From Paraburkholderia sp. BL10I2N1 (GTDB taxonomy: Bacteria; Pseudomonadota; Gammaproteobacteria; Burkholderiales; Burkholderiaceae), in contig NZ_SNWA01000003.1 in assembly GCF_004361815.1 (NCBI RefSeq), positions 496,001 through 560,000 on the forward strand: DNA of 64,000 nt, given 5' to 3'. The first letter of the stretch is position 1; every line of letters starts with the position of its first letter. The position numbers and the translations under genes were made by a program. Below are positions 14,359-48,718 of the stretch, piece by piece. The notes under the pieces were generated by a model. It was given only the letters and a program-made list of their open reading frames with translations, made no database searches and was not told where the DNA came from.

Positions 14359-17289
14359 TCAACCTGCGCGCTGCGAGGGTGACGATGCGCCCACCATGAG
14401 GCTCGGCATGAGCCGATCCACATAATCGGCGATCGGAAAGTCGAAGGTGCCGCGCAGATTGATACCTGCCAGCGACGTTGGGGCGATGCTGCGCAGCTGT
14501 TCGGGTAACACAGGCTGGTCGCCGAGCTTCTCGATCGTGTCGAGCGCGCGTTGCATGTGCTCGGTATTCCACGCCATGACTGCATTGGTCAGGAGCGTCA
14601 GCGCCGAGGAGACGGCCATCATCGAATGGCGGTGACGCGTGAGTTCGACGGGAATCTTGCCTTGGTGAATGGCGCGCTGCACATTGTGGACAGCCTCGCC
14701 GCGATTGAGCGCGTGCTGCAATTCGCCGCGAAATACCGGCACTGTAAAGTAGTCGATCAGGAAGATTGTCCGGAAGAGCCGCCCAAGATGAACGCCGCCG
14801 TCGTAGAGCGGTTGTCCGCGTGCGGCGGAGCCAAAGCGCGCAAGAGCCTGCACGGCCGTGCAATGACCGCTTTGCACGGCCGCTGCAACGCGTACGAAGT
14901 CATCCCACATAGCTTCGATTGCGTCGAGTTGGACGTCGCGATCGGTGATCGCCGCCAGATCCGCCGGTATCTGGAAATCAACCGGTACATGCAGGTGCCG
15001 GTCCCGCAGATGAGCCAGCCGGGGACACAGGTCGAAGCCCAATGCGCGGGCGAGCCCCATCGCGAAATCGGTATACCCATGGGTATCGACGGCAAGCATA
15101 GCCACGTCGTCGGTACTGCTTTGCCGGATCACACCCTCGATCGCGACACCCGCCTGTCGCTCGTTGAGCACGATCGGCTGGTCGTAAAAGATGCCCCAGC
15201 GATCGCGCACATGCGTGTACACGCCAATCGACGCCGTGCGTCGCCGCGGATCGGCACGCGCCTGCCAGACCGTTTTCGTCGTTTCCAGCGACATCATGTC
15301 CGACGACGCAAGGTCCGCCCGGCCCCAGTGCTGCGCGATCGGATGCTGGTGCATGAATTCGAGCACAGCATCGGCAGCCTGGCGCAACATCCGCTCGTCC
15401 GCGATGCGGCTCATCATCTGGCGGATCGCGGTCGCCGACAGTTCCGGCACCATGCGGGCGATATCGGCGGCGGACATCGACGTGCCGTGTGCGAGAACCG
15501 CGGCATAGACCATCAGCAGTTCGGTGCGCGAGCGCGGCTCCCGACCCAGCAGTATCCAGCTGAAGCGCACGGTGCTGTCGACTTCGAGAATGATCCTCGG
15601 CAATTGCCCGTCGGGTCGGGGTGCAAAAATTGCCCGGCGCAGCGATTCGAGCGCGACATCGTGCGGATGGGCGCCCAGCGGGCCAATATGGACTGCATCA
15701 TCGACGCGCAGCTCGCCGCGCGCCACTGCCTCGCGAAGACGTTCCAGACCGGCATTGAGATGCTCGATGACCGGCTTGAGAAATTCCTTGGGGTCCTGAG
15801 GTAGTTTCAGATGGCCATAGTAATGATTGCGTCTGGCCTGCCATTCGTCGTCCGGGATCAGCAGCGTGGCCTGACTGCGGAAATCAAAGCTGTGCTCGAC
15901 ATAGACCGAGCCGTTGCGCAAGGCGACGCGTAGCGCGAAAAGGGTTGCCCATTCGAAAGCGAGCAGCGCCTGGTTGCGGTCTTCGTTCTCGATCAGGCGT
16001 TGCCAGGCCCGACCGAGCTGGATGGTCGTGTTCTGCGGCAGCTCGACCGATCTGCTCGCGTAGAGGTCGCGCAACAGCGCGATCGCTTCGATGACCGGAT
16101 GCGCGATCTGCGCTTCGAATGGCAGCGTCAACAGCCTGGCGAGCATGGCGCGAGCGACGCGCCGTTTGGATATCAGTTGCGAGCGAACCAGACTTGCGCG
16201 GCTGGGCGTCTCCTGTTTGAGCACTGCATCCGCCAAGGCAGAGATCTGCTCGACCAGTTCGTCGTGCGTCAGACTTTCGTCGGTGGCTATCGCCTTGACG
16301 GCCGTGGCAAAGTGGTGCATCTGTGCCTTGAGGTCTGGCCGCGCTGCCGAAACCCTGCTGTTCGCTTCGTTGAGGGATTTACGAATCCAGCGGCCGAGCA
16401 TCGAAAGCAACTGGTCGGTGGCGGTGCAGAGCGCATACCGTATGAAGCATGCGGCCTCGAGCCGGCGAGACGACTGGATTCGCTTGCTGACCGATGGTTT
16501 GCGATGGGCACAGCGCCGCGCGAAGTGTCGCACGCTTGCTTCATTGCATGTCGTCGGCCAGTTACCGTGTACGCCAAGCTCGATCAGTCGATCAATCTTG
16601 CGAAACAGTTCGCTCATCTGGTGCGTCGAGTTGCGCAGCGGCACCGACCACAGCCATTGCTGCAGGCTCGCAACCGATCCATGCGGCAACGGTAGCAGGC
16701 GTCCCCAGCGATCAAGCGTCGCTTCGCCGAACGCGTGGACGAGGCTACCGGTCAGTGTCGTTTCGACATCGCGCGCGGCCTGCACAAGTAGGGGCGTGAG
16801 CGCGCGATCCTGCTGGATCAGGATGCGATGTTCATAAAGCCATCGTTTGAGTTCCTGCATCAGATCGGCGCGATTCGGACGCCCCGCCAAGCGCTCCTTG
16901 AGCCAGCGCACAACGTAACGGCGCTGATGTTCGGCCATCGGTACGAAGCCGAGCGCCTGATAGGCGATCACCTGATGATCGAAAAGCGTGCGCTCGCGCG
17001 TTTCGTAGAGGGTGCGCAGCGTGCCGAGGTCTGGTGGCTCGATCCCGAGATGCTTGCCCAGGTGGCTCCACAAGATCTGCGGTACATACTGGTAAGCATC
17101 GAGTGTCGCGCCGGTCATGCGCACGAAGCCGATATGCAACGCGAGCGCGAACCGGTAGAGGGGACCACGGCGCGCGTTGATCAATGCCCGTTCTTTGGAC
17201 GAGAACGTAAAGAACGTGGCGAGTTCGAACTCGCTGAGATCGCGCGGCATACGCCGCATGCCCAGATAAGCCAGTCGCCAGTGTTCCAT
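14359..17289 (-). CDS. tnpA: Tn3-family transposase, IS1071-like group
   Basis: The 976-residue protein is a full-length Tn3-family transposase. Its N-terminus (LRDLSEF-type start: MRRMPRDLSEFELATFFTFS) resembles IS1071. The three acidic catalytic residues can be placed: Asp in LEVDSTVRFSW, Asp in LAVDTHGYTDFAMG, and Glu in LNRGEAVHNVQRAIHQGK. It catalyses replicative transposition at terminal repeats. No resolvase is adjacent, as in IS1071 itself. The reading frame is intact, so the enzyme may be active even if one end has been lost. It separates the bio/cupin region from the decayed genes at 17.5 kb. Confidence 0.92.
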   Translation of the reverse strand: MEHWRLAYLGMRRMPRDLSEFELATFFTFSSKERALINARRGPLYRFALALHIGFVRMTGATLDAYQYVPQILWSHLGKHLGIEPPDLGTLRTLYETRERTLFDHQVIAYQALGFVPMAEHQRRYVVRWLKERLAGRPNRADLMQELKRWLYEHRILIQQDRALTPLLVQAARDVETTLTGSLVHAFGEATLDRWGRLLPLPHGSVASLQQWLWSVPLRNSTHQMSELFRKIDRLIELGVHGNWPTTCNEASVRHFARRCAHRKPSVSKRIQSSRRLEAACFIRYALCTATDQLLSMLGRWIRKSLNEANSRVSAARPDLKAQMHHFATAVKAIATDESLTHDELVEQISALADAVLKQETPSRASLVRSQLISKRRVARAMLARLLTLPFEAQIAHPVIEAIALLRDLYASRSVELPQNTTIQLGRAWQRLIENEDRNQALLAFEWATLFALRVALRNGSVYVEHSFDFRSQATLLIPDDEWQARRNHYYGHLKLPQDPKEFLKPVIEHLNAGLERLREAVARGELRVDDAVHIGPLGAHPHDVALESLRRAIFAPRPDGQLPRIILEVDSTVRFSWILLGREPRSRTELLMVYAAVLAHGTSMSAADIARMVPELSATAIRQMMSRIADERMLRQAADAVLEFMHQHPIAQHWGRADLASSDMMSLETTKTVWQARADPRRRTASIGVYTHVRDRWGIFYDQPIVLNERQAGVAIEGVIRQSSTDDVAMLAVDTHGYTDFAMGLARALGFDLCPRLAHLRDRHLHVPVDFQIPADLAAITDRDVQLDAIEAMWDDFVRVAAAVQSGHCTAVQALARFGSAARGQPLYDGGVHLGRLFRTIFLIDYFTVPVFRGELQHALNRGEAVHNVQRAIHQGKIPVELTRHRHSMMAVSSALTLLTNAVMAWNTEHMQRALDTIEKLGDQPVLPEQLRSIAPTSLAGINLRGTFDFPIADYVDRLMPSLMVGASSPSQRAG

Positions 17290-21188: not shown

Positions 21189-22358
21189 TCAAGAGTCGGG
21201 TCGAACTGTATCGACTTGCTCCCGCACGGTTTCGGTGTGTCGCCGGTCATCTTCCACGTGAAGATAGATGCCGGTCGTCTGGATTGATGCGTGACGCATG
21301 TTCTTCTGGATGAAGCGCAGGTCGGTGCCGGCGTCGGCCTGATGAGTAGCGGCGCTGTGACGCAACCAGTGAGTCGAGGCGCGTCGCAGCTTTGCTGCGC
21401 CCGCTGAATCACTCGCTTCAAGCATCCCGGCGGCCCGTCTAAACACTTCCTTGACGATGAGGTAGACCGCCGACGGCGTCAGATGTCTGCACGGGTCGCC
21501 GGCGACGCTCATCAGCGCGGCCGTGGTCTCGTTCCCCGACGGCGTTGGCGCCAGTCCGTGAAAAACCCGGTACCGCGCCAGGTCCGCCATCAGCGCGGCG
21601 CTCACCGGCACCTCCCCTTCGGTGCCACCCTTCCCGACCACGTGCAGCCACCACCTGCCGCGCCGCGGATAGAAGTCCGCTGCCTTTGCATTCGCCGCCT
21701 CCGAGACCCGCAGCCCTGTGTGATATAGCAGGCGGATCAGCCAGCGGCTGCGCTCGTAGTGCTGATGATCGCGCGCGGTCAGCCGCGGCCACTGCTCGAC
21801 GCTGGCGAGCACGTGGTCCCAGAGCGCGTGATCCAGATACCGTTCGACCCGCCGCGTACGTCGGGCTGCAGTGCCGGTCCGGCGGCGCAGCGCCAGTGGA
21901 TTGCCAGCCAGATAACCGGCGCTGACCAGATACGTCAGCAGGCCCGACACGATGCCAAGCGCCTGATGCTGGCTGCGCTCCGACAGCGGCCCGTCAAAGA
22001 GGCGCCGCGTGCCGCCCCGCCGCGGCAGGGTTGGATCCGCCCAGTCGCCGGTCGGCGCCGCGAGAAACTGCTCGTACAGCACAAAGTCCTCGCGCGTCAG
22101 GCTCGAGAGTGGCTTGCCCAGCGCCTGCGTGGCCCACAGCAGCAGGCGTACCGCTTCCTTGCGGTAGCTGCGCAATGTGTGGGGCGAACCGGCATATTCC
22201 GCGAGCCACAGGCGCACCGCCTCGACGTCGCTGTCCGCGGCGATCTGCCGGTGCCCGCCGCGTGCGCGGTTGACACCGTTGTGCCCGTCGAGAGCGGCCG
22301 GCAGCACAAGGGAAAAGATCGGTTCTGGTGATTCTGGGGCTGCAGCGGGCAGGTTCAT
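21189..22358 (-). CDS. tnpS: Tyrosine recombinase, probably TnpS-type cointegrate resolvase
   Basis: The 389-residue protein has an N-terminal SAM-like DNA-binding domain (AVRLWLAEYAGSPHTLRSYR) and a full catalytic domain: Arg in HTGLRVSEAANAK, Lys in VVGKGG, His-x-x-Arg in HWLRHSAATH, His in RHASIQTTGIY and the Tyr nucleophile in that same segment. Tn4651-type Tn3 transposons resolve cointegrates with such a recombinase (TnpS), divergent from a coiled-coil helper (TnpT), with the recombination site between them. The arrangement here is the same: divergent partner at 22536 and a 177-base intergenic region with a palindromic core. A generic integrase is the alternative. Confidence 0.82.
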   Translation of the reverse strand: MNLPAAAPESPEPIFSLVLPAALDGHNGVNRARGGHRQIAADSDVEAVRLWLAEYAGSPHTLRSYRKEAVRLLLWATQALGKPLSSLTREDFVLYEQFLAAPTGDWADPTLPRRGGTRRLFDGPLSERSQHQALGIVSGLLTYLVSAGYLAGNPLALRRRTGTAARRTRRVERYLDHALWDHVLASVEQWPRLTARDHQHYERSRWLIRLLYHTGLRVSEAANAKAADFYPRRGRWWLHVVGKGGTEGEVPVSAALMADLARYRVFHGLAPTPSGNETTAALMSVAGDPCRHLTPSAVYLIVKEVFRRAAGMLEASDSAGAAKLRRASTHWLRHSAATHQADAGTDLRFIQKNMRHASIQTTGIYLHVEDDRRHTETVREQVDTVRPDS

Positions 22359-22535: not shown

Positions 22536-23489
22536 ATGAGCCGCATCAGCGACACCCGCATCCGCACCCGCGATGCCGCCACGCGCTTGGTCGCTGCCGG
22601 CCGGTGCCCGCACGAGCTCACCGTCGACCTCATCTACGCGGAGATCCGCCAGGGCAGCCGCACCACGATCAACGACGAGCTCAAGCTCTGGAAGGATGAG
22701 CAGGCGCGCCACGACGCGCTCGCTGCGGCGCTGCCGCCCCCGGTTGCCAATGCGATGCTTTCGCTCTGGGCGCTCGCCGTTGAGCACGGCGAACAGGTGT
22801 TCGCACAGCGCGGTGAAGAGCTCGAGCGCGAAGCGACCGACGCCACGGCACGCGCAGAGTCGTCGGAGACTGCTCATGCGGCGCTCGAGGCCCAAGCGCA
22901 AACGCTGCGCGCGCAACTCGAGGACCGAGAGGTGCGGCTCGCCGCGGCGACAGCTGAGCTCGCGCGCGCCCAGGCTGAGCACGACACGGCCGTCCGCGAG
23001 GTACAGACTGTCGCAGCCGGGCGAGATGCCGCGCGCGCCAACGCGGAGGAAGCCCTGCGTGCGGCGCGGGCTACACATATGCGCGAGCTCGAGACGCTGC
23101 GCGCCGAACACGCTGAGCGCGAAGCCGCCCTGCGCGTGCAGATCGACCAGGCAACTGCGCGGCTCGAAGGTGTGCAAAAGCGCGTCATGCTGCAAACCGA
23201 GGAGGCGCGCGATGCGCAGCGCCGCGCGGAAGCGGCGCTGGCCAAGATCCAGCAGCGCAACGAACAGCTCGTCGGCGACGTGCAGCGGCTCACGGCTGAG
23301 GCGGGCGAGCAGCGGCGCCTGGCCGAACGGCACGAAAAGCAACTCGCGGGCGTTATGGACGAGGCGCGCGAACTGCGGCGCGAGCGTGACGCGCTCGCCC
23401 AGCAGGTCGCGCTGCTGCAAGGACAGCTCAACGCGCGAGCCGAGCCCGCGCCGACGCGGGCGACGAGGCGTTCCCGTCAAGCAACCTGA
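22536..23489 (+). CDS. tnpT: Coiled-coil DNA-binding protein with KfrA-type N-terminus (TnpT-like)
   Basis: The 317-residue protein starts with a KfrA_N-like helix-turn-helix domain (about 1-120; TVDLIYAEIRQGSRTTINDE). From about 115 on it is a nearly continuous Ala/Glu/Arg-rich coiled coil (AQTLRAQLEDREVRLAAATA and similar). KfrA proteins bind DNA and organise it. TnpT of Tn4651-type transposons is a coiled-coil helper that binds the resolution site. Divergent placement from the tyrosine recombinase supports TnpT. It is followed directly by a tnpA 3' fragment on the same strand. The basic C-terminus (TRATRRSRQAT) may aid DNA contact. Confidence 0.8.
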   Translation: MSRISDTRIRTRDAATRLVAAGRCPHELTVDLIYAEIRQGSRTTINDELKLWKDEQARHDALAAALPPPVANAMLSLWALAVEHGEQVFAQRGEELEREATDATARAESSETAHAALEAQAQTLRAQLEDREVRLAAATAELARAQAEHDTAVREVQTVAAGRDAARANAEEALRAARATHMRELETLRAEHAEREAALRVQIDQATARLEGVQKRVMLQTEEARDAQRRAEAALAKIQQRNEQLVGDVQRLTAEAGEQRRLAERHEKQLAGVMDEARELRRERDALAQQVALLQGQLNARAEPAPTRATRRSRQAT

Positions 23490-23706
23490 CGGTGCGACAC
23501 ACAGCCTCTACAACGTGCAGTGGATGTCGCGCAAACTGAAGGGGTTGCAGGGGAAGGGCCACCCGGTCGACGCCGAGGTGCTCCAGGCGCTGTCGCCTTA
23601 CCGCAGGGACCACATCAACCGGCTCGGATCCTGTCTGCTGGATCTTCAGCGGAAGGTCCCGCCGCTCGATCCATCGATCGATTTCGGCTTTGAATCAGCC
23701 GCTTAA
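23490..23706 (+). pseudogene. 3' end of a Tn3-family transposase gene
   Basis: About 70 codons match the extreme C-terminus of Tn3-family TnpA proteins: YNVQWMSRKLKGLQGKGHPV, then LQALSPYRRDHINRLGSCLL and a stop at 23704-23706. Intact transposases have the same ending, for example the one at 37836-40832 (NTIYMEAVLKQLRSEGYPV, then ARLSPLIHDHANMLGRYSF). Everything before the final 70 residues is gone and the fragment abuts tnpT, so a deletion removed most of tnpA. The neighbouring tnpS/tnpT therefore belong to a crippled transposon. Confidence 0.8.
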
Positions 23707-37835: not shown

Positions 37836-40832
37836 GTGCCAGTCAGTTTTGTCACCGCCGATCAACGGGACGGCTATGGTCGCTATGACGGTTCGCCGTC
37901 GCCGGAAGAGCTGACCCGCTATTTCCATCTGGACGACGCGGATCGCGTGCTCATCGGGCGGTGTCGCGGCGCTCATAATCGCCTCGGATTCGCCTTGCAA
38001 CTCTGTACGGTGCGATTTCTCGGCACCTTTCTCGACGATCCGGTCGCCGTACCCGACACGGTGATCGCGACGCTCGCGCGTCAGTTACATATCGATGACG
38101 TTGATCTGGCCGCCTACCGTGACGGCAAGCAGCGCTGGAACCACACCGTCGAGATCCGCCAGCATTCCGGCTACCGCGCATTCTCGGATGCTGTCGTTGG
38201 TTTTCGGCTTTCGCGCTGGCTGTATGCGTTGTGCTGGACAGGCACCGACCGGCCCGGCGCGCTGTTCGAGCGCGCAACCGGCTGGCTGCTTGCTCACAAG
38301 GTGCTGCTGCCTGGCGCGACGATGCTCGAAAGCTTTGTCGCACGCGTGCGCCAGCGCGTGGAGACACGACTGTGGCGCATGCTTGGCAGCGGTCTGAGTT
38401 ATGAAGCACGCGCGAATCTTGAGGCGTTGCTCTCCAGCGTGCCAGGCAGCCGGAGCTCCGTGCTCGACCGGTTGCGTAGCGGCCCGGTTGTCGTCAGCGG
38501 ACCTTCGCTGGTACGCTCGCTCGAACGTCTGGAGGCGGTGCGGGCGTTGGGCATCCGCCTGCCGATAGCGGCTCATATTCCGCCGACCCGGATTGCCGCG
38601 CTGGCGCGCTTTGCCAATACCTCGAAGGTCACAGCGATCGAGAGATTGCCGCCGGCGCGACGTCTCGCCACGCTCGTGGCCTTTGCCTACACACTTGAAG
38701 CGAGCGCGCAGGACGATGCGCTGGAGGTGCTCGAAGTCCTGCTCAGGGAGTTGTTCAACAATGCACAGAAAGCCGACCAGAAATCGCGCGTGCGCAGCCT
38801 GAAAGATCTCGACGCCTCGGCCATCAAGCTCGCTGGCGCCTGTACGTTCCTGCTTGATACCGACCTGCCGGCGAACAAGGTGCGCGATGCGGTGTTCAAG
38901 GAAATTCCACGGGATGAACTCCTCAACGCCCTGCAGGAGGTCAGCACGCTGGTTCGTCCGCCGCAGGATGTGTTCTATCGTGAATTGCAGGGACGTTACC
39001 GCTCCGTGCGACGCTTCCTGCCCGCGCTGCTTGAGCACATACATCTTGATGCAGGTCCAGCCGGGCGGGCGGTGGTTGAGGCGCTCAAATACCTGCACGT
39101 GATGGAGGTCGATCCGAAACGGGATGCCGAGCCTCCAATGGCGGTCGTGTCGAAATCCTGGCAGACGCACGTCGTGCCGAACGAGGGCGAGGTGGATCGG
39201 CGGGCCTATCTGTTCTGTACGCTGGATCAGTTGCGAGTCGCACTGCGTCGGCGTGACGTGTTGGCGGCACCAAGCTGGCGGTACGCCGATCCTCGCAAGG
39301 GTTTGCTGACGGCGGTCGAGTGGGACGTCGCCCGCCCCGTCGTTTACCGCTCGCTCGGGTACACAGCGAATCCGTCGGCGATGCTGGCTGCAATGGCGCA
39401 GGAGCTGGATCAGACCTACCGCGCCGTCGCGGCGCGCCTGCCTGACAATCCCTTCGTGCGTATCGAGGCCGATGGCGACAAACACGAACTGATATTGACG
39501 CCGCTCGACAAGATCGAGGAACCCGAGTCGCTTATCGCACTGCGTGCCATCGTGGCTGAACGGCTGCCGCGCGTCGATTTGCCAGAAATCATCCTGGAAA
39601 TTGCTGCGCGTACGGGTTTCAGCAAGGCTTTCACCCACATCAGCGAGCGTGAGTCGAGGGCCGACGATCTCACGACCAGTCTATGCGCTGTGCTGATTGC
39701 CGAGTCGTGCAACACCGGGTTCGAGCCCCTGGTCCGGCAGGATATGCCAGCGTTGCGTCGCGACCGGCTCGCGTGGGTTGCCCAGACCTATATTCGCGAC
39801 GACACCCTGTCTGCCGCGAACGCCATGCTGGTCGCAGCGCAGAATCAGATCGAACTGGCGCACATCTGGGGTGGTGGCGAAGTTGCGTCGGCCGACGGCA
39901 TGCGCTTCGTGGTGCCGGTGCGAACGGTTCATGCGGGCCCCAATCCGAAATACTATGGCGTCGGCCGCGGCGTCACGTACTACAACATGGTATCGGACCA
40001 GTTCACCGGCATGCATGGCATCCCGGTGCCGGGCACGCTGCGCGACAGCCTGGTACTGCTGACGGTGGTACTCGAACAGCAAACAGAACTGCAGCCGACA
40101 CAGATCATGACTGATACCGGTGCCTACACCGATATCATCTTCGGGTTGTTCCGCCTGCTCGGATATCGCTTCAGCCCACGCCTGGCCGATATGGGCGGCA
40201 CGCGGTTCTGGCGGATCGATCCGAGCGCTGACTATGGCGAACTCAACAAGATCGCACGACAGCGGGCGCGACTGTCAGTCATCGAGCCGCATCTGGACGA
40301 CATGCTGCGCCTCGCGGGCTCCCTGAAGCTGGGCAGGGTATCAGCCGCCGGTATCATGCGCACGTTGCAGGTCGGCGACCGGCAGACACAGTTGGCAAAG
40401 GCACTGGCCGAATTCGGCCGGATCGAGAAGACGCTGCACACGCTCACGTACATCGACGACGAGGCAAAACGCCGAAGCACGCTGATCCAGCTAAACCGAG
40501 GCGAAGCGCGCCATGGGTTAGCCAGAACCGTGTTTCATGGCAAGCGTGGCGAATTGCGCCAGCGGTACCGGGAAGGACAGGAAGACCAGTTGAGCGCGCT
40601 CGGACTGGTCGTCAACGTGATCGTGTTGTGGAACACCATCTACATGGAGGCCGTGTTGAAGCAGCTTCGCAGTGAAGGTTACCCGGTGCAGGACGAAGAT
40701 GTTGCTCGCCTGTCGCCGCTCATCCATGACCACGCCAACATGCTCGGCCGTTATTCGTTCGCCGTGCCGGAAGCAATCGTACGCGGAGAGTTAAGACCAC
40801 TCAGGAAGCCCGGCGACGATGCGAACGTCTGA
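37836..40832 (+). CDS. tnpA: Tn3-family transposase, Tn4651-like N-terminus
   Basis: The 998-residue transposase begins MPVSFVTADQRDGYGRYDGS, then the DUF4158-type YFHLDDADRVLIGRCRGAHN and LGFALQLCTVRFLGTF. The later acidic catalytic residues can be placed: Asp in IMTDTGAYTDIIFGLF and Glu in LNRGEARHGLARTVFHGK. An earlier Asp is in VASADGMRFVVPV. The start is GTG at 37836. The frame is intact. Its right end probably ends near 40893 and has cut a LysR gene. Its N-terminus fits the group whose resolution genes are tnpS/tnpT, which lie 14 kb to the left beyond the DMSP genes. Confidence 0.92.
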   Translation: MPVSFVTADQRDGYGRYDGSPSPEELTRYFHLDDADRVLIGRCRGAHNRLGFALQLCTVRFLGTFLDDPVAVPDTVIATLARQLHIDDVDLAAYRDGKQRWNHTVEIRQHSGYRAFSDAVVGFRLSRWLYALCWTGTDRPGALFERATGWLLAHKVLLPGATMLESFVARVRQRVETRLWRMLGSGLSYEARANLEALLSSVPGSRSSVLDRLRSGPVVVSGPSLVRSLERLEAVRALGIRLPIAAHIPPTRIAALARFANTSKVTAIERLPPARRLATLVAFAYTLEASAQDDALEVLEVLLRELFNNAQKADQKSRVRSLKDLDASAIKLAGACTFLLDTDLPANKVRDAVFKEIPRDELLNALQEVSTLVRPPQDVFYRELQGRYRSVRRFLPALLEHIHLDAGPAGRAVVEALKYLHVMEVDPKRDAEPPMAVVSKSWQTHVVPNEGEVDRRAYLFCTLDQLRVALRRRDVLAAPSWRYADPRKGLLTAVEWDVARPVVYRSLGYTANPSAMLAAMAQELDQTYRAVAARLPDNPFVRIEADGDKHELILTPLDKIEEPESLIALRAIVAERLPRVDLPEIILEIAARTGFSKAFTHISERESRADDLTTSLCAVLIAESCNTGFEPLVRQDMPALRRDRLAWVAQTYIRDDTLSAANAMLVAAQNQIELAHIWGGGEVASADGMRFVVPVRTVHAGPNPKYYGVGRGVTYYNMVSDQFTGMHGIPVPGTLRDSLVLLTVVLEQQTELQPTQIMTDTGAYTDIIFGLFRLLGYRFSPRLADMGGTRFWRIDPSADYGELNKIARQRARLSVIEPHLDDMLRLAGSLKLGRVSAAGIMRTLQVGDRQTQLAKALAEFGRIEKTLHTLTYIDDEAKRRSTLIQLNRGEARHGLARTVFHGKRGELRQRYREGQEDQLSALGLVVNVIVLWNTIYMEAVLKQLRSEGYPVQDEDVARLSPLIHDHANMLGRYSFAVPEAIVRGELRPLRKPGDDANV

Positions 40833-42299: not shown

Positions 42300-42550
42300 T
42301 CATTCAGAGAGATTGCGCCGGGCCGGATCCTGACTGATCGAATTCGCGAATCGTCGCTCAGGCAGAAGCTCGCCGACGGCAAGAGCGAGCAGGAGGGGCT
42401 CGTCGAACTCGCCGCAGAAGTGCCATTGAAGCGGATCGGTCAGCTCGAAGAACTCGGTGCGCTGGTCGCCTCCTGGCCTCTGGACGCGCCAGCTACATCA
42501 ACGGTGCGACCATCGAAGTGGGTGGCGGACTGGGAAACGGGATCCTCTGA
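42300..42550 (+). pseudogene. 3' fragment of a short-chain dehydrogenase with a frameshift
   Basis: IAPGRILTDRIRESS, then LAAEVPLKRIGQLEELGALV is a typical C-terminal third of a 3-oxoacyl-ACP-reductase-like SDR. One base is missing at about 42474. The continuation in the next frame, ASGRASYINGATIEVGGGLG, completes the family ending at TGA 42548-42550. The Rossmann half is absent. It ends about 230 bases before the tmRNA gene. Confidence 0.8.
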
Positions 42551-42778
42551 GCCTTTGAAACGGCGCCACGAACAACATGGATCAAGTGCGTTGTCGCCTG
42601 CACGACGCCGGCCACAATGGTCCGACATACGCACCGGGACCGCGTTCAGCGTCGATGTTGGCGATCGAGCAAGATATTTCCAACCTGGAGCGACAGCACG
42701 GTATCAAGACAAGAATACGCCCTTGAGTAAATTGCTTCGCATTTCTGAGCGCCTGCCAGAAGAGTTGACGGTAAAGTG

Positions 42779-43105
42779 AGCCCCACCATCGCAAGGTGGT
42801 GATTGCTGTAACTCCTTTGACGTGAAGGCGTACTGGACGCGGGTTCGATTCCCGCCACCTCCACCAGATGACGCGTTTGGCAGAAGCGCCATCTGATGGG
42901 GGTGTCCCGGTTTCGACAGGGCGAGATAGCGAAGAAGGCAGCAGGAAAGGTGACCGACCTAACCGGCACAAATCCGTAACTGCAAATGATGGCAGCTACA
43001 CCTTGAGAGCTAACGGCTAACATCCGGTTTTGCTTCTCCGAGTTGCCGCCCCATCGCGCAAGTGATGCTTGGGAACAGAAAGGGCGGCCCCATCGTCGAT
43101 GCAGT
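42779..43105 (+). ncRNA. ssrA: Circularly permuted (two-piece) tmRNA
   Basis: The acceptor half comes first: a hairpin CCACC/GGTGG (42783-42799), the T-arm GCGGG-TTCGATT-CCCGC (42839-42855), then CACCTCC and ACCA to 42866. A 31-base spacer (42867-42897) follows, able to pair GATG.CGC with GCG.CATC. The coding half starts GGGGGTG at 42898, which pairs with CACCTCC to form the acceptor stem (one G-U). AACCGG (42961-42966) and CCGGTT (43024-43029) pair around the tag frame 42982-43020. The tag reads ANDGSYTLRANG and stop. Usual tags end in ALAA-like residues; this one does not. The 3' limit of the coding piece (about 43105, after a GCCGCCC/GGGCGGC stem) is estimated. Confidence 0.88.
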
Positions 43106-43268
43106 GAAACCGGGCGCATTAAATGGCTGCGTCGCCGGACCAGCGTAACCGGCACCCCACTCCGATCAGCCAGGCGATCAGTTGCCGTGAGACTTCGCTT
43201 CACCGAGGACAAAGCATGACTGAAGCAATCTGGGGGCGCGCTCTGTTCAAGGTCGGAACTATTGTCGA

Positions 43269-43745
43269 TTGGATCAACACCTGTTTGGCGCTTTGAACAT
43301 GGTCGAATACTCCGAAGAAGAGGGGCGGGAATTCATCACGCGACGGTTGCGGGTATTCGCCGTGGCACCGCGACAAGCGGCCCAACTCTGCCGGTCCCTG
43401 CTCAAGGACGAAGAAGTTTCCGGGCTGGTTCCGTGGATGGATGGAAAGTCCGCGAAGGAACTCGATCAGGAGACACTTCGGATCGAACTCCTCTGTGCGG
43501 CCGGTGGTTTGAATGTCTGGGCGATTCAACTGCTCGAAGATCAGGTCATCGTTGGCGCGATCATTGAAACGTCGTCGCTCGCGGGCAGCAATGTGGAAGC
43601 GATTCTCGGGAGGGACTGCTGGGGGCATGGGTTCGCGGATGAGGCGCTCGCTCCGGTACTGCATTGGGTGGCGTCGTGAATCAGCGAGATGCGTGCAGAC
43701 TGGCGATCGAGAAAAACTCGCTCCTCGTTGAAGACTTCATATGTC
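43269..43745 (+). pseudogene. Damaged GNAT-family acetyltransferase
   Basis: From ATG 43269 the frame gives EFITRRLRVFAVAPRQAAQL, VGAIIETSSLAGSNVEAIL and GRDCWGHGFADEALAPVLHW, the last being the acetyl-CoA-binding region of RimJ/RimL-type GNAT enzymes. It stops at 43679. The expected next segment appears in another frame as NQRDACRLAIEKNSLLVEDF, but the roughly 20 residues normally between are missing. The gene has therefore suffered a deletion and frameshift. Start at the in-frame ATG 43299 is equally possible. Confidence 0.65.
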
Positions 43746-47777: not shown

Positions 47778-48718
47778 GGCGAGCGTCAGCCGTGAACTGG
47801 CGCGTAATGCGTGTCCGGTGCGCGGCTACGCTTCGGTAGTCGCGCAGACCATCAGTTCGAACCGGCGGGCTGCAGCGCGCACGCCGGGTAAGCTGAATCC
47901 CCAAGGCGCACTGTGGCGCATTGTGCTCAGTCTGCTTAGCTGGAAGTGGTCGCCGCAGCAGATCTCCGGTACGCTGACGCGCATGTGGCCCGATGACCCT
48001 TCCATGCACGTCTCGCACGAGACCATCTACAACGCAATCTATGCACACCCGCGCGGCGAACTGCGCCGCCAGCTCATCTCGTGTCTGCGCCAGGCTCGCA
48101 GCACGCGAATGCCACGCAGTCGTGGCAACGACAGACGGGGCAAGATCGCCGACATGCTGAGCATCCACGTACGCCCGCCTGAGGTGAACGATCGGGTCAT
48201 GCCCGGGCACTGGGAGGGAGACTTTATCAAGGGTGCGGGCAACCAGTCCTCCGTGGGAGTTCTGGTCGAGCGCACCAGCCGGCTTGTCCTGCTCGCGAAG
48301 ATGGAGGATGCCACCGCCGCCTCAGCGCTGGCCGGCTTCACCGCCAAACTGAACTCCATCGCCACGCCACTGCGTCAGAGCCTGACCTATGATCAGGGCA
48401 AGGAGATGGCGCGGCATCCGGAACTCACCGCCGCCACCGGCGTGCGCGTGTATTTCTGCGATCCTCACAGCCCATGGCAGCGTGGCACCTGCGAGAACAC
48501 CAATGGCCTGCTACGCCAGTATCTGCCCAATGGCACCGATCTCTCGGTCTACAGTCAGGACGACCTCGATGTCATCGCCGACAGCCTCAACGGCCGGCCC
48601 CGTGCCACACACGCATTCCACTCGCCGTTCGAAGTCTTCGCCACCATGCTTGCACTTGCCTCTCGACCTGATACTTCCGTTCAATAAGCCTTGTGTTGCG
48701 CTTCACGTTTGAAACCGC
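47775..48718 (+). mobile_element. IS30-family insertion sequence, 5' truncated
   Basis: The transposase frame reads SASVSRELARNACPVRGY (end of the helix-turn-helix) on to the stop at 48685-48687. Catalytic residues are visible: Asp in PGHWEGDFIKG, Asp in TYDQGKEMARH and Glu in GTCENTNGLLRQYLPNGTDL. Roughly the first 40 residues and the left repeat are absent. The right repeat is probably 48692-48718, whose reverse complement reads GGCGGTTTCAAACGTGAAGC and so on. It truncates an efflux gene on its left and an ISKra4-type transposase on its right. Confidence 0.82.

Follow-up and report, generated by a model that had tools for sequence, protein, structure and literature searches.

The 64,000-nucleotide stretch of Paraburkholderia sp. 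BL10I2N1 DNA analyzed here (the window; C3:496001-560000) encodes, from 42784 to about 43140, a circularly permuted, two-piece tmRNA, recognized by two Rfam covariance models above their gathering scores. The gene is a real extra permuted tmRNA and adds a new member to a group that has been little described. Judging from its sequence, we give slightly better than even odds (about 0.55) to an intact, replicon-borne extra two-piece tmRNA that would rescue ribosomes while largely or wholly sparing the product. The main rival to this rescue-RNA reading is decay after relaxed selection, by which a redundant extra tmRNA, acquired with its replicon, would be a vestige with a drifted tag, the rest of it starting to decay and possibly untranscribed; we regard this as possible, though on the unlikely side. 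The nearest sequence found lies on the Pandoraea oxalativorans plasmid pPO70-1 (NZ_CP011518; 78% over 79% of the query).

Architecture of the Permuted tmRNA Gene

The beta_tmRNA model RF01850 matches 42751-43020 with 132.1 bits (E 4.8e-40; gathering score 84), and the tmRNA_permuted model RF04321 matches 42804-43053 with 132.5 bits (E 1e-25; gathering score 47). Both hits bear out the initial annotation, which had read a two-piece tmRNA here and had pointed to the Rfam models as a check. ARAGORN agrees on the permuted form, which it calls at 42774-43310; its tag differs from ANDGSYTLRANG, the reading used here, and was rejected. ARAGORN misreads other permuted tags too, for example at locus L013.

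All elements lie on the plus strand. The gene order is permuted, in that the T arm, CACCTCC and an encoded ACCA (42839-42866) precede GGGGGTG (42898-42904); this arrangement and the 7-bp acceptor pairing had been noticed before, and both are found in the sequence. All seven acceptor pairs are present, including G3.U70 (42860-42900, T-G), the alanine identity element. A precursor leader hairpin of 7 bp with a GCAA loop (42784-42801), of which 7 of 7 pairs are kept in Pandoraea, three via a one-sided change, is followed by the 3' piece (42804-42866), the 3' half of the tRNA-like domain in the RF04321 and RF01850 alignments. Alignment and sequence together place its T arm at 42839-42855, its acceptor strand at 42856-42862, the discriminator A at 42863 and the encoded CCA at 42864-42866. 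The 31-nt intervening sequence (42867-42897), which should be excised, folds so as to lengthen the acceptor stem, and its hairpin is kept in Pandoraea despite only 55% identity, with two double changes and one broken pair.

The 5' piece begins at 42898-42981 with the acceptor strand GGGGGTG (42898-42904), a D-loop-like region and the resume context GTAACT. A helix joins 42917-42923 to 42829-42835, and pseudoknot 1 spans 42943-42969, each with one mismatch. The tag reading frame with its TAA stop (42982-43020) is followed by the 3' domain, which is 90% identical to that of Pandoraea and contains the stem GCCGCCC/GGGCGGC (43045-43088) with an inserted 6-bp hairpin (43052-43067; one double change, two one-sided changes, no broken pair). 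Beyond it lies a 3' terminal hairpin, CCGG.CGCA/TGCG.CCGG (43110-43138), with one double change in its inner stem. Because the 43045-43088 stem and the 43110-43138 hairpin are conserved in the relative, we place the end of the RNA about 35 nt past 43105; the span first given, 42779-43105, does hold the tmRNA but stops short of its 3' boundary. A helix that had been proposed around the tag frame fared less well: the strings AACCGG/CCGGTT exist (42961-42966/43024-43029), but as a functional stem they were rejected, with two of six pairs broken in Pandoraea, where the alignment is poor. Residues 42963-42969 can instead take part in pseudoknot 1, as its 3' strand.

An open frame of 12 codons carries no weight alone, because about half of all random 12-codon stretches are open; the case for a tmRNA rests on the resume position and the covariance-model scores.

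An Extra Copy on a Probable Megaplasmid

The host assembly comprises 9.2 Mb in four contigs and is listed as 100% complete. An intact one-piece ssrA with the tag ANDETYALAA lies on contig C1 (C1:2385385-2385743, 212.4 bits), as does the single smpB match of the genome, with none on the window's contig; the earlier suggestion that the permuted gene is an extra copy thus holds. C1 is the largest contig (4.7 Mb), while C3, at 729,489 bp, is much smaller than C1 and C2 and is probably a megaplasmid. A search for TrfA in the genome gave no match, and its control was equally silent.

Within the window, long Tn3-type transposase frames lie at 14359-17289 (minus strand) and 37836-40832 (plus strand), and an integrase-core frame at 47818-48687 (plus strand). 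At 22573-23706 (plus strand) and 21189-22358 (minus strand) lie a Tn3 remnant match and a phage-type integrase. These transposase and integrase frames sit among catabolic genes. For the surrounding 24-kb piece, the best plasmid match (P. sprentiae) covers only 8%, and 20 of 56 matching records are from Xanthomonas, those of them that were listed matching through a Tn3 transposase stretch. The mobile-DNA setting that had been described is therefore supported as far as the transposase genes and the small contig go, and the plasmid nature is probable.

A Conserved Body in a Pandoraea Plasmid Relative

Plasmid pPO70-1 is 633 kb long, is typed as conjugative and carries two tmRNA copies (L011 and L066), one of them near trfA and parAB. 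The RNA cores of the two are alike save for two loop bases and their flanks have diverged, a combination for which gene conversion, duplication or strong constraint could account. Like the window gene, both are permuted, share the 3' domain and reside in a host that also has a one-piece ssrA (found in the Pandoraea genome taken as that of pPO70-1); unlike it, they have the resume codon GGC and the tag GKNDAFYYEAA, ending in Ala-Ala, and occur as two on one plasmid.

How is the difference between the two lineages distributed along the RNA? In the body, the 3' and 5' pieces of the window and Pandoraea RNAs share 91% and 87% identity, their 3' stem domains 90% and their terminal hairpins 79%. Identity drops to 54% over the leader hairpin and the bases upstream of it, and to 55% in the intervening sequence. 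In the tag and linker it is 29% (16 of 55 columns), so that a conserved tag in this lineage was rejected.

A check of pairing conservation found the helices mostly kept in Pandoraea, four pairs via double changes. These four of 70 pairs compare with a shuffled mean of 1.4, a count matched in 7 of 500 shuffles, and with none at every slid register; pairing cells reach 98.0% against a shuffled mean of 95.8 (reached in 7 of 500), and further pair types are less striking (11 against 9.1; 26 of 500). As effectively two sequences are compared, on a structure drawn on the window, these counts are support and not proof. Two pairs are broken only in the window (42832-42920 and 42957-42963), which counts against the rescue-RNA reading and for a vestige, and one only in Pandoraea (42867-42893).

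The body itself leans against decay. The window scores 132.1 bits with RF01850, against 131.6 and 134.9 for the two Pandoraea copies, and 132.5 with RF04321, against 128.8 for both; the end branches of the tree are similar (0.072 and 0.064), in a tree whose window-Pandoraea pair is weakly supported (91/38), with a long-branch Variovorax row adjoining and the bootstrap unsettled. By these scores and branches, the RNA body of the window appears to be without clear extra decay relative to its Pandoraea sisters.

A Tag without the Usual Ending

The tag frame reads ANDGSYTLRANG followed by a stop, its final residues being Asn-Gly in place of a terminal Ala-Ala, which is the part of the tag that ClpXP reads. 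At the resume site, UAACU|GCA, the codon GCA begins four nucleotides past the equivalent of E. coli A86, in keeping with the rule that the resume codon starts at this distance (PMC2481249). The other frames were discarded: +1 reads QMMAATP, -1 stops after two codons and +2 after one.

That the tag lacks the usual ending, as the initial annotation had pointed out, is confirmed by a survey of permuted loci, in which 76 of 78 readable tags, read by position, end in Ala-Ala; of the other two, that of L062 closes with Val-Ala and that of the window gene with Asn-Gly. Many of the surveyed loci are close kin and hence not independent. The 78 derive from 85 loci, less five duplicates of the window or Pandoraea and two that are unreadable (L098, mis-anchored, and L124, a truncated copy). 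Two Pandoraea rows were read at the un-snapped position as GKNDAFYYEAA, in agreement with ARAGORN. Among the further permuted loci that ARAGORN reads but the regular expression of the survey missed are the Variovorax locus L064, L055, L059-L061, L102 and most viral loci; the permuted loci outside the 78 include three viral tags ending in Ala-Val.

Is such a divergent tag to be expected at this distance? In a control over the first 33 tag bases of 58 distinct loci, with pairs whose 5' pieces are 80-92% identical and with L066, L098, L124 and identical rows left out, the median tag identity of 375 pairs without the window was 91%, and just two pairs, both involving L062, were as low as the 54% of the window-Pandoraea pair or lower. 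By this comparison, the tag, unlike the RNA body, has lost its usual constraint in the window-Pandoraea lineage. The non-degron end is known from one sequence only, because the tag of the closest relative still ends in Ala-Ala. As a terminal Ala-Ala is usual, not universal, we do not withdraw family membership on the ground of its lack: the odd tag does not exclude the gene from the permuted tmRNAs, because tmRNAs with no CDS at all exist, according to the 2025 tmRNA database paper (PMC11915505).

Two further features of the tag, like its occurrence in a single sequence, weigh against the rescue-RNA reading. Its first half, ANDGSY, is similar to the part of the E. coli tag that binds SspB, and tethering by the SspB adaptor can partly restore the degradation of proteins with poor tails (PMC8512704). 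At its end, two near-adjacent GCTAAC motifs (43009-43014 and 43016-43021) would fit slippage; a tandem-repeat finder returned no rows in the tmRNA gene.

Proposed Role and Alternative Explanations

What might such an RNA do beside a standard tmRNA? In the rescue-RNA reading, a precursor would be transcribed from about 42784, tRNA-processing enzymes would excise 42867-42897, and the two pieces would remain paired. Alanine would be charged onto the G3.U70 acceptor, host SmpB would deliver the tmRNA to stalled ribosomes, and translation would resume at GCA 42982 and end at TAA 43018, so that stalled proteins would gain the tail A-ANDGSYTLRANG. Proteins ending in AANDGSYTLRANG are expected to carry a poor ClpXP degron, given a tail that closes with Asn-Gly instead of Ala-Ala, and rescue would therefore leave the product largely or entirely undegraded. 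A precedent is the viable Helicobacter pylori mutant with a truncated tag, by which rescue is separable from degradation (PMC2584231).

A vestige would account for several of the same observations. The tag and linker are the fastest-changing part of the gene (29%), the GCTAAC motifs stand near-adjacent at the tag end, two pairs are broken in the window only, transposase genes are nearby (Tn3 at 37836-40832, integrase core at 47818-48687), and a permuted gene occurs in just one of the 144 genomes of the genus. A consensus scan of 42500-43400 found neither a sigma-70 promoter nor a terminator; the candidate promoter element is a weak -10-like TAAAGT on the plus strand (42772-42777), whose aligned columns read CAGAAT in the Pandoraea copies. 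Against decay, however, stand the body scores, equal to those of the Pandoraea sister, the similar end branches, the helices kept by double changes, and a frame that is open to its stop behind an intact resume context.

An interfering tmRNA, which would compete for host SmpB and stalled ribosomes and thereby shield the replicon's proteins or mRNAs from normal trans-translation, appears improbable. It would fit a genome whose only smpB match lies on C1, with none on the window's contig, and a DS6A-like molecule consisting of the tRNA domain only strongly inhibits tmRNA, perhaps by titrating SmpB (PMC4131195); however, the full tag frame, resume context and pseudoknots are kept here, unlike in DS6A, which points to rescue rather than a mere block. 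That an ordinary extra tmRNA merely received its odd tag end through faulty sequencing or assembly is very improbable. Although the oddity is confined to a short stretch in which the short repeat GCTAAC occurs twice, the relative is strongly different at other positions of the tag and linker as well, the frame runs open to its stop, and the assembly of four contigs is listed as 100% complete.

Beyond the rescue-RNA reading of the single gene, we tentatively entertain, as a less probable extension, a replicon-borne lineage of two-piece tmRNAs released from proteolysis, in which the body would be selected while the tag drifts or diversifies and proteins doomed by the host would be spared. If this were true, the element would free ribosomes and mark the spared proteins with a stable tail, and a natural rescue-only tmRNA would share a cell and its single SmpB with a standard tmRNA, making a division of labor directly testable. 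It would also suggest that mobile DNA can bring its own translation quality control.

Distribution among Relatives

Permuted tmRNAs are sparsely distributed around the host. Of the 144 genomes searched in its genus, the window's own alone yields a permuted hit at E <= 1e-12. A search of 398 genomes of the family gave a match above 75 bits in 18, and in the order a permuted tmRNA is found in 17 of 399 genomes, the window's own included. Four further genomes of the family pass the cut-off at 47-52 bits, and ARAGORN reads all four as one-piece. The 17 other strong genomes of the family divide into 13 in which a one-piece gene also passes its cut-off and four without (genera g16 and g7). Of the 13, genus g3 contributes 12 and genus g11 one. 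We take g3 to be Cupriavidus on the strength of matching plasmid records, and g11 to be Pandoraea because its genome G204 contains the two pPO70-1 copies at corresponding positions. Permuted genes occur in 13 of 60 genomes of g3 and one of 32 of g11, and 12 of 12 permuted-bearing genomes tested in genus g3 also have the one-piece gene. One g3 genome, G346, carries five permuted matches above 75 bits on three contigs, plus a one-piece gene.

Further extra copies were sought in a family of five genomes, which yielded only an alpha-type match in an incomplete genome. Exact patterns of the 3' domain were absent from genome contigs, in a scan that also missed the Pandoraea copies containing the string, and from viral contigs. 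A permuted pattern with the window's acceptor picked out 30 stretches in genome contigs and 20 in viral contigs, with no close relative recognized among them; its genome-contig scan, too, missed the Pandoraea plasmid copies containing that string, and both genome-contig scans say little about absence.

Three further loci were noticed. In L062 (G724, Burkholderiales), the two pieces of a permuted tmRNA are separated by only about 5 nt of intervening sequence, and the tag has 28 residues and ends in LNVA; L059 (G652, Burkholderiales, 6% contamination) is a permuted tmRNA of the alpha type that lies where its contig ends and is probably misbinned; and L110 (Frankia sp. AgKG'84/4) is a permuted-tmRNA pattern match on an actinobacterium-labelled contig, perhaps by contamination or transfer.

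Comparison with Known Systems

With the beta-type permuted tmRNA, on which Sharkady and Williams reportedly wrote the founding paper in 2004, the window gene shares the gene order, the tRNA-like domain, the 7-bp acceptor with G3.U70, pseudoknot 1 and the resume context; it differs in its tag without Ala-Ala, in the extra hairpin in the 3' stem (43052-43067) and in its RF01850 score, 132 against 284-287 bits for three Cupriavidus plasmid copies. The permuted tmRNAs of Cupriavidus and Variovorax are found on plasmid records, but their tags end normally (ANDEKFALAA, ANDERFALAA and ANDKRFALAA; in Variovorax ANESNFRLAA), and those of the Cupriavidus plasmids branch elsewhere in the tree. A plasmid-borne pair of tmRNA and SmpB genes is present on Variovorax sp. 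WDL1 plasmid 2 (NZ_LR594690; L064:5934-6840), where smpB lies just downstream of the permuted tmRNA (tag ANESNFRLAA); of seven searched plasmid records with a permuted tmRNA, it is the only one to have smpB, and three more Variovorax plasmids give the same DNA match.

Phage tmRNAs, as in Stenotrophomonas phage DLP_6, Xanthomonas phage XacN1 and IMG/VR contigs, are likewise permuted and element-borne, but several have tRNA genes as neighbors; PMC9004378 gives a description of two-piece tmRNAs in phages. ARAGORN reads a tag in 18 viral contigs, ending in AA in 15 of them and in AV in three, and the permuted tmRNAs of contigs L069, L073 and L084 have 27-29-residue tags ending in LAV or FAV. In phage XacN1 (L016:3336-3749), a GOLLD RNA lies about 1 kb downstream of the permuted tmRNA. 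The tmRNA of mycobacteriophage DS6A is also element-borne and may alter host trans-translation (PMC4131195), but it comprises little beyond the tRNA-like domain, to which the window gene adds a tag frame and pseudoknots.

The 2025 tmRNA database holds 97,179 unique sequences, including CDS-less forms and very short tags, and the accessible portion of its paper makes no mention of extra plasmid copies or degron-less tags (PMC11915505). The matches listed in our literature search, which covered few subscription journals, include no report of permuted tmRNAs from plasmids of Burkholderiaceae. That plasmids can carry extra ssrA alleles has been published before; what is new is the tag of the window gene and its lineage.
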